From the NCBI GenBank assembly GCA_019638595.1, contig JAHBTJ010000004.1, forward strand, positions 62,001-126,000: 64,000 nt of DNA, given 5' to 3'. Below, one piece after another: positions 16,103 to 17,245 of the stretch. Position 1 is the first letter of the stretch. Each line of letters starts with the position of its first letter. The notes beneath the pieces were generated by a model, which was not told the DNA's origin, did no database searches, and saw nothing but the letters and a program-made list of their open reading frames with translations. The position numbers and the translations under genes are program-made. The stretch comes from Chitinophagaceae bacterium (GTDB lineage Bacteria; Bacteroidota; Bacteroidia; Chitinophagales; Chitinophagaceae).

Positions 16103-16218
16103 TTTTTTAAGTAAAGATAAGCGCTTGGGGGTAGAATGGCGGATAAAAAGGATATGGTTTTTTGCTTTGTATTTCCTAACTTTAAGTTTCCCATTCACCA
16201 AATAAAAAGGAGGTATTC

Positions 16219-16266
16219 ATGCAATCTACAGATAAATCATGGACGCCTTCGGTTATTATCGCGTAA
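16219..16266 (+). CDS. Leader-peptide-like ORF (15 codons)
   Basis: MQSTDKSWTPSVIIA then TAA, preceded at five bases by AAGGAGG (16207-16213), a strong Shine-Dalgarno site of a kind rare in this window. The last codons (GTT ATT ATC GCG TAA) overlap the first two arms of a 1:2/2:3/3:4 set of alternative helices that ends in an intrinsic terminator. That is the geometry of an amino-acid attenuator, with two tandem Ile codons placed in arm 1. Translation and function are inferred; the Shine-Dalgarno, ORF and helices are seen directly. Confidence 0.55.
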   Translation: MQSTDKSWTPSVIIA

Positions 16267-16338
16267 CCGGGCTACTCCATAAAAATAATCTGCGACAGCA
16301 ATGTCGGAAGTCACCGGTTACATTCCGGTGGCTTTTTT
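16250..16338 (+). promoter_or_regulatory. Attenuator-like alternative helices
   Basis: Arm 1 CGGTTA (16250-16255) pairs with arm 2 TAACCG (16264-16269). Arm 2 extended, GTAACCGG (16263-16270), pairs perfectly with arm 3 CCGGTTAC (16314-16321). Arm 3 also pairs with arm 4 in the terminator. A separate CGACA-GCAA-TGTCG hairpin lies at 16293-16306. Arms 1:2 and 2:3, and 2:3 and 3:4, exclude one another. No biosynthetic gene lies downstream on this strand. Confidence 0.55.
16309..16338 (+). terminator. Intrinsic terminator after the leader ORF
   Basis: AGTCACCGG (16309-16317) and CCGGTGGCT (16325-16333) form a nine-pair stem with one G-T wobble and a seven-base loop. The last base of the stem begins a T run that extends to 16338. 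The orientation is plus strand. Confidence 0.75.
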
Positions 16339-17069: not shown

Positions 17070-17097
17070 CGGGAGGTAGTTCAGCCCGGTCGTAGAA
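17070..17097 (+). pseudogene. 5' fragment of tRNA-Pro
   Basis: CGGGAGGTAGTTCAGCCCGG, repeated exactly from the 5' end of the intact tRNA gene 102 bp downstream, followed by TCGTAGAA, which is close to the intact TAGAA. It then diverges before the anticodon arm, so it cannot fold as a tRNA. It lies between the promoter and the intact gene, so it is probably co-transcribed. Confidence 0.75.
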
Positions 17098-17171: not shown

Positions 17172-17245
17172 CGGGAGGTAGTTCAGCCCGGTAGAATACC
17201 TGGTTTGGGACCAGGGGGTCGCAGGTTCGAATCCTGTCCTCCCGA
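17172..17245 (+). tRNA. tRNA-Pro (anticodon TGG)
   Basis: 74 nt with acceptor CGGGAGG/CCTCCCG, a D arm, the anticodon arm CCTGG-TTTGGGA-CCAGG (anticodon TGG, reading CCA and other CCN codons), a TTCGAAT T-loop and discriminator A. CCA is not encoded. A terminator follows nine bases later. Confidence 0.95.

Follow-up and report, generated by a model that had tools for sequence, protein, structure and literature searches.

Between positions 16177 and 16338 on the forward strand of the window, by which we mean the whole 64,000-nt stretch of Chitinophagaceae DNA that was analyzed, lies what comparative evidence indicates is a real, conserved RNA that stands alone and is about 150 nt long, with transcription expected to start near 16192–16196. 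The parts of the element are as follows.

16177..16190 (+): putative promoter −7 region, TAACTTTA at 16177–16184 overlapped by TAAGTTTC at 16183–16190
16196..16202 (+): 5′ leader motif CACCAAA, one of six near forms of which occurs in 124 of 124 distinct copies
16203..16218 (+): complement of the 16S rRNA 3′ tail (an ultra-extended Shine-Dalgarno, SD), TAAAAAGGAGGTATTC, directly abutting the AUG
16219..16266 (+): 15-codon open reading frame (ORF) MQSTDKSWTPSVIIA with stop TAA, preceded by AAAAAGGAGG
16209..16221 (+): arm 1 of predicted structure A, consisting of the SD core and AUG (GGAGGTATTCATG); pairing in 96.9% of the cells of 103 rows
16238..16250 (+): switch segment CATGGACGCCTTC, internal to the ORF; its predicted partner is the SD/AUG (structure A) or alternatively, in the case of most bases, 16269–16280 (structure B)
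16229..16292 (+): predicted structure B, an extended hairpin (CAGAT/ATCTG, ATGGA/TCCAT, GCC/GGC, CGGTTAT/GTAACCG) whose 3′ arm holds the stop codon
16293..16306 (+): small hairpin CGACAGCAATGTCG of the minimum free energy fold
16309..16338 (+): intrinsic terminator, stem AGTCACCGG/CCGGTGGCT plus a T run

An earlier note on this DNA had read the locus as an orphaned amino-acid attenuator. Several of its observations hold: the ORF lies at 16219–16266 with a strong SD, AAAAAGGAGG, upstream; the stop codon falls within the 3′ arm of the hairpin that the note called the 1:2 pairing; and an intrinsic terminator is present at 16309–16338. The predicted fold of the window RNA has a z-score of −4.29 relative to dinucleotide shuffles, none of 200 shuffles being equally stable. 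An Rfam scan of the window returned only two tRNAs above threshold and left the element unmatched (its four hits were all sub-threshold, with E of at least 2), and a generic feature scan of the window did not list the promoter box or the terminator (16309–16338). Elsewhere in the window, a tRNA-Pro 5′ fragment of about 21 nt is repeated approximately 100 nt upstream of the intact tRNA (17070–17090 and 17172–17192).

A covariance model built from 14 copies identified the RNA in 58 of 244 sampled Chitinophagaceae genomes, representing 31 of 101 genera; in 10 of 198 genomes of an order-level sample, three of the ten belonging to a second family; and in two of 295 genomes of a class-level sample, both of the home family. 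A DNA search gave a match in 15 of 58 genomes, the source genome included; its 24-nt match in one genome (G018) was unconfirmed by the covariance model, and the RNA-negative status of three genomes (G009–G011) is by BLAST alone. The RNA is present as a single copy in the source genome and in 57 of the 58 carriers of the family sample. The carriers are described as soil bacteria of the Chitinophagaceae, and the distribution among them is patchy. Scanning with an exact pattern yielded at least 119 stretches in named genomes. Most of the 80 matches listed carry the label Chitinophagaceae, Chitinophagales or Bacteroidetes, and the 80 include Chitinophaga, Niastella, Segetibacter, Puia, Pinibacter, Ferruginibacter and other genera as well as one chance hit in a Clostridiales record (L131); the same pattern found no copy in viral contigs. 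One copy (L168) lies on a contig labelled Beijerinckiaceae, perhaps a misassigned contig of a metagenome-assembled genome (MAG).

In all, 142 copies were collected, 68 through the covariance model and 74 through the exact-pattern scan; the leader letters of the latter are guaranteed, because the exact pattern located them. Measurements were made on 135 copies, after leaving out the chance hit, a copy with a stop at codon 6 (L140), two truncated copies (L142, L177) and three with too little sequence 3′ of the element (L073, L126, L193). The 124 distinct cores, aligned on the near forms of CACCAAA, were used for the promoter, synonymous-codon, ensemble and terminator tests. Two loci carry more than one copy. 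In Sphingobacteriales bacterium Ww30 (L151) an intact copy is followed by two further, decayed copies in tandem (1114–1354, −), which comprise the hairpin part and have no leader, SD or AUG, and in genome G245 (L081) two copies lie about 960 nt apart, no terminator being found 3′ of the second.

TAnnTTTG is the promoter consensus of the Bacteroidota. Among the 124 distinct copies, the positions 13, 12, 9, and 8 nt before CACCAAA are T in 85%, A in 87%, T in 85%, and T in 81%, respectively, and a box of the type TAnnTTTR lies 13 nt 5′ of CACCAAA in most copies, at the position that TAAGTTTC occupies in the window. With a strict TAnnTTTG search, the box fell on this very position in 50 of the 124, and 28 yielded none. 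Terminators were detected in 122 of 124 distinct copies, compared with 17 of 123 in a control window; they start 87–117 nt 3′ of AAAAGG and give a predicted transcript length of 130–161 nt (median 150). The 600 ORFs flanking the RNA at 141 loci, which were clustered by relatedness and identified only in part, include none that constantly accompanies it; the widest clusters take in 14, 11 and 8 loci, the first varying in position and strand and the second being mostly downstream. Orientations of the neighbors are +>+ at 44 loci, ->+ at 32, ->- at 28 and +>- at 25, with one side undetermined at 12. Where a downstream gene could be called (132 loci), it shares the strand of the RNA at 78; this slight excess would be compatible with a degree of read-through. 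A linkage of the RNA to tRNA genes was dropped, a tRNA lying within the fetched stretch in just two of 68 copies, those of the source genome (L001) and L002.

The leader is complementary to the whole single-stranded tail of 16S rRNA, the mature end of which we take to be placed as in other bacteria. Positions 16203–16218 (TAAAAAGGAGGTATTC) form a perfect 16-nt complement of the 3′ end of the source genome's own 16S rRNA, whose gene end (L251) reads GGAATACCTCCTTTTTAGAG, finishing in GGCTGGAATACCTCCTTTTTAGAG and including TACCTCC. Neither this complement nor the possible pairing of the SD and AUG with the interior of the ORF had figured in the earlier note. All 68 model-found copies contain AAAAGGAGGTATTCATG, and their complement, ending without interruption at nt −1, measures 14 nt in 38, 15 nt in 15 and 16 nt in 15; the covariance model did not require the complement, but was built from copies having one. 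In the wider set of 135, which was located by the first 14 letters of the complement, the lengths are 14 nt in 71, 15 nt in 35 and 16 nt in 29. No other stretch of the RNA is as invariant. Where a 16S end was found in RNA-bearing genomes (14 of 14), the gene ends GGAATACCTCC and the tail is GGAATACCTCCTTTT; in a genome of another family of the class the gene ends GGAACACCTCC, with tail GGAACACCTCCTTTC. The search pattern held CCTCCTTT fixed and left the bases before it free, and it gave no match to a 16S end in 44 of the 59 genomes queried, including all three second-family carriers.

Pairing energies with the tail were predicted with ViennaRNA duplexfold over a 22-nt upstream window, in the same way for the RNA, for rpsU and for a sample of ORFs. 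The 68 model-found copies have a median of −21.5 kcal/mol (range −21.7 to −19.8), and 141 copies span −21.8 to −19.8 kcal/mol. These values lie beyond the mark of less than −13 kcal/mol for messages of bS21-lacking ribosomes, our energies being from ViennaRNA and not from the program used in PMC9976891. Pairing of rpsU, known in the phylum for its strong SD, is weaker than that of the RNA, with medians of −15.8 kcal/mol in RNA-bearing genomes and −15.4 in the others. Strong SDs are rare elsewhere: among 727 sampled ORFs the strongest SD pairing is −13.1 kcal/mol, two reaching −12 and none −16; this sample took the first ATG of ORFs of at least 150 codons from partly overlapping loci, and misplaced starts may hide SDs in it.

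Two folds are predicted for the remainder of the element. In structure B, the inner 15 pairs are matched in 89.1% of cells, compared with 28–51% in slid controls, and covary, with a score of 0.222 against 0.136 ± 0.005 in shuffled alignments (0/500) and changes on both sides in 10 of the 15 pairs; the outer CAGAT/ATCTG pairs are seen in folds and stand outside the pair count. Covariation of the arms, which the earlier note had proposed as a check, was thus found in this hairpin. In structure A, the SD and AUG pair with the middle of the ORF, and the 96.9% of paired cells compare with 41–58% in slid controls; the 103 rows of that alignment represent 100 loci and include the two decayed L151 copies and a partial copy (L127). 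The SD arm never varies, so structure A is beyond the reach of a covariation test. The complement of the ORF to the SD has a mean of −13.2 kcal/mol, versus −9.2 for random synonymous codons, and in every one of the 124 distinct copies this pairing beats the average of 30 such recoded versions. The TTC before the AUG pairs in structure A as well, so the tail need not be the only cause of its invariance. At the site of CGACAGCAATGTCG, inspection by eye showed a short hairpin, variable in sequence, in many copies.

Because both folds draw on CATGGA..CCTTC, they are mutually exclusive. The predicted minimum of the window sequence itself is structure B. Freeing the SD and AUG has a median predicted cost of 2.3 kcal/mol at 37 °C and 3.6 kcal/mol at 28 °C, and the probability of SD–ORF pairing exceeds 0.5 in 58 of 124 copies at the higher temperature and in 69 of 124 at the lower. 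According to these models, the SD and AUG can either be sequestered by the ORF or be freed while the covarying, stop-bearing hairpin forms.

The reading frame is maintained with considerable strictness. Of 140 readable copies, 139 have a frame of 14 or 15 codons (15 in 121, 14 in 18). The exception, L140, comes from a MAG and has a stop at codon 6, its RNA letters being otherwise similar; it is either an error or a natural test of the need for translation. Among 135 copies, the stop is TAA in 112, TAG in 15 and TGA in eight, and the distance from ATG to ATGG is 17 nt in 122, 14 nt in nine and 16 nt in two, both of the latter having a compensating +1 (the pattern scan admitted distances of 14–17 nt); L072 has no ATGG and L163 has an extra, earlier one. 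At the first base of the stop (pair 64–81), U stands opposite G in 22 copies and C in none, as expected if C is forbidden there because it would destroy the stop. The amino acids, by comparison of the sequences, look weakly constrained. In 105 fifteen-codon copies, the differences fall evenly on the three codon positions, with a synonymous fraction of 0.274 against 0.239 expected, a comparison confounded by the relatedness of the sequences and by RNA pairing. The test is blunt, since a shifted frame scores a higher synonymous excess (0.352) than the ORF frame (0.245).

These results bear on several explanations other than the one we favor. An orphaned Ile/Val transcription attenuator from an ilv-type operon, the reading from which the earlier note started, is suggested by the ORF, the stop codon within a hairpin, the terminator and the ATT ATC of the window ORF. 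The 2:3 antiterminator is indeed present in the window sequence (−7.8 kcal/mol), but over 122 copies it pairs no better than with swapped terminators (−6.16 kcal/mol matched versus −6.42 swapped, sd 0.17), and the tandem Ile codons are kept in just 20 of 124 copies. No downstream gene is shared: its absence, as described in the earlier note, is confirmed for the window and, to the extent that 141 loci can tell, for the family. On the swap test, the codons and the genomic context we reject an amino-acid attenuator, which we consider very improbable. Nor does the alternative of a relic of a lost ilv-type operon survive, since the same anatomy in 31 of 101 sampled genera, again with no shared downstream gene, is not that of a decaying relic. 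The other alternative in the note, a stand-alone regulatory RNA, fits a conserved element with its own promoter box and terminator and no constant neighbor at 141 loci. Searching relatives for the ORF and arms, as the note had suggested, found both conserved and no constant gene following them; with the hairpin arms covarying, the element stands. A repeat element, or an ORF that arose by chance next to a stray terminator, would account for the patchy presence (58/244) and for the rare tandem or decayed copies, but not for a single copy in 57 of 58 carriers and in the source genome, the covariation, or the same anatomy in 124 distinct copies; conservation refutes this possibility, and we give it almost no credence.

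A peptide acting in trans, as peTrpL of Sinorhizobium does, would be in keeping with the conserved length of the ORF, with Trp8 in 105 of the 105 fifteen-codon copies counted and with S3, T4, D5, S7, V12 and A15 in most of them. The CATGGA segment that holds Trp8 is paired, however, and pairing of the RNA can account for the residue; the synonymous fraction is close to expectation; and in L013 and L192, which were left out of the 105, a compensated −1/+1 frameshift alters residues 2–9, the Trp included, while most nucleotides and the stop are kept. We consider this explanation improbable. Hardly more probable is a small RNA that base-pairs with mRNA targets, its seed, for example the A-rich stretch after TCCAT, being exposed or hidden by translation of the ORF. 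The free-standing anatomy with promoter box and terminator would suit such an RNA, as would the succession of CCAT, an A-rich stretch and an ATCTG-like stretch seen by eye in many copies, but the highest invariance is in the tail complement and not in a free seed. The main rival, although still an unlikely one, is a hardly translated trap that would lock free-tail 30S subunits or protect the 3′ ends of 16S rRNA while subunits are assembled, with the ORF doing no more than setting a slow release. Since the fully paired tail would extend right up to the AUG, there would be little space to place that codon in the P site, which is why the RNA would lock the subunit. The complement reaches nt −1 in all 68 model-found copies, whereas in 139 rpsU genes the match ending there is 0–3 nt, and the GGAGG-to-AUG spacing is 5 nt in the RNA compared with 7–13 nt in the 94 of those genes having GGRGG. 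The RNA thus falls outside the rpsU spacing, a yardstick of our own and not a published criterion, and full pairing of the tail may impede initiation. Against the trap are the frame-keeping indels and the strictly kept stop, which argue that ribosomes do reach the stop codon.

The reading that we prefer, and to which we give about an even chance, is of a free-standing mini-mRNA of approximately 150 nt whose translation would be gated by 30S subunits with a free tail, and which would act as a sensor or as a decoy or titrator. In the Bacteroidia ribosomes studied, a pocket formed by bS21, bS18 and bS6 hides the 16S tail (PMC9976891), so ordinary ribosomes should skip the site. In state A the SD and AUG of the message would be masked by pairing to the central part of its ORF; in state B they would be free while the remaining ORF forms the second hairpin. 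A 30S subunit with a free tail, such as one that is immature or lacks bS21, could invade state A where it is formed, gaining about 21 kcal/mol of predicted pairing, and the ribosome would then read the 14–15 codons and terminate inside the second hairpin. If expressed, the RNA would sense or titrate free-tail 30S subunits. With frame and stop kept and amino acids apparently weakly constrained, capture and transit of the ribosome is a likelier object of selection than the peptide, and we suggest that the RNA may capture ribosomes in an unusual state, or sense them.

Such ribosomes have a precedent in the phylum. In Flavobacterium johnsoniae, ribosomes lacking bS21 preferentially read messages with a strong SD (PMC9976891), and rpsU, the gene for bS21, is autoregulated through them (McNutt et al. 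2023, PMC9976891); for the Flavobacteriales, SD-dependent control was concluded to be limited to rpsU (PMC9976891). The presence of the RNA shows no link to the strength of the rpsU SD in 53 RNA-bearing and 76 other genomes (medians −15.8 and −15.4 kcal/mol; P = 0.75), and GGAGG precedes rpsU in 33 of the 53 and 36 of the 76 (P = 0.11); one of the 53 belongs to the second family, and an unparsed rpsU (L234, of G014) was left out. The rpsU gene has no SD in several genomes, although it has a strong one in most of their sampled relatives; examples are L225 (G036) and L293 (G110), both from RNA-bearing genomes. The independence of RNA presence from rpsU SD strength, together with the SD-less rpsU genes of carriers, argues against the RNA being simply a partner in rpsU autoregulation.

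More tentatively, we consider it possible, if somewhat doubtful, that this is the first natural RNA family devoted to the 16S tail, a switch RNA capturing 30S subunits with an unsequestered anti-SD. A literature search, outside which lay preprints and most subscription journals, found no earlier description of such an RNA. If the reading is true, specialized ribosomes would have a second client besides rpsU, possibly a quality-control decoy keeping bS21-less or immature subunits off ordinary messages. The conserved RNA occurs in a different order of the class from the Flavobacteriales and has a tail complement longer than that reported for rpsU. It would give direct access to the question of whether ribosomes with a free tail constitute a genuine regulatory population, would serve as their natural reporter, and would provide an SD switch whose exactly defined parts can be mutated.

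With the leaders of ilv- and trp-type attenuators, the RNA has in common a short ORF, a stop codon in a hairpin arm and an intrinsic terminator; unlike them, it has no conserved antiterminator, regulatory codons or shared downstream operon. SgrS/SgrT is a dual-function small RNA encoding a peptide, and RNAs of this type are likewise small transcripts with an ORF and a terminator, but the conserved pairing partner suggested by the sequences here is 16S rRNA, no target seed having been identified. The rnTrpL RNA of Sinorhizobium meliloti derives from a working trp attenuator. It too is a small RNA, and its leader ORF, with the product peTrpL, may act away from its locus (PMC7298713); unlike rnTrpL/peTrpL, the RNA described here has no operon and its peptide looks weakly constrained. 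With the rpsU (bS21) mRNA of the Bacteroidota it shares an exceptional complementarity to the 16S tail, in a phylum that mostly ignores SDs (PMC9976891), and a short leader, predicted to be about 25 nt in the RNA and natively 25 nt for rpsU in F. johnsoniae (PMC9976891). Whereas rpsU is a ribosomal protein gene with reported tail helices of 9–13 bp (PMC9976891), the RNA is free-standing, with a frame of 14–15 codons and a predicted pairing of 14–16 bp that ends at nt −1, and, unlike rpsU, it has an SD and AUG that can be hidden by its own ORF and a terminator that follows directly after it.
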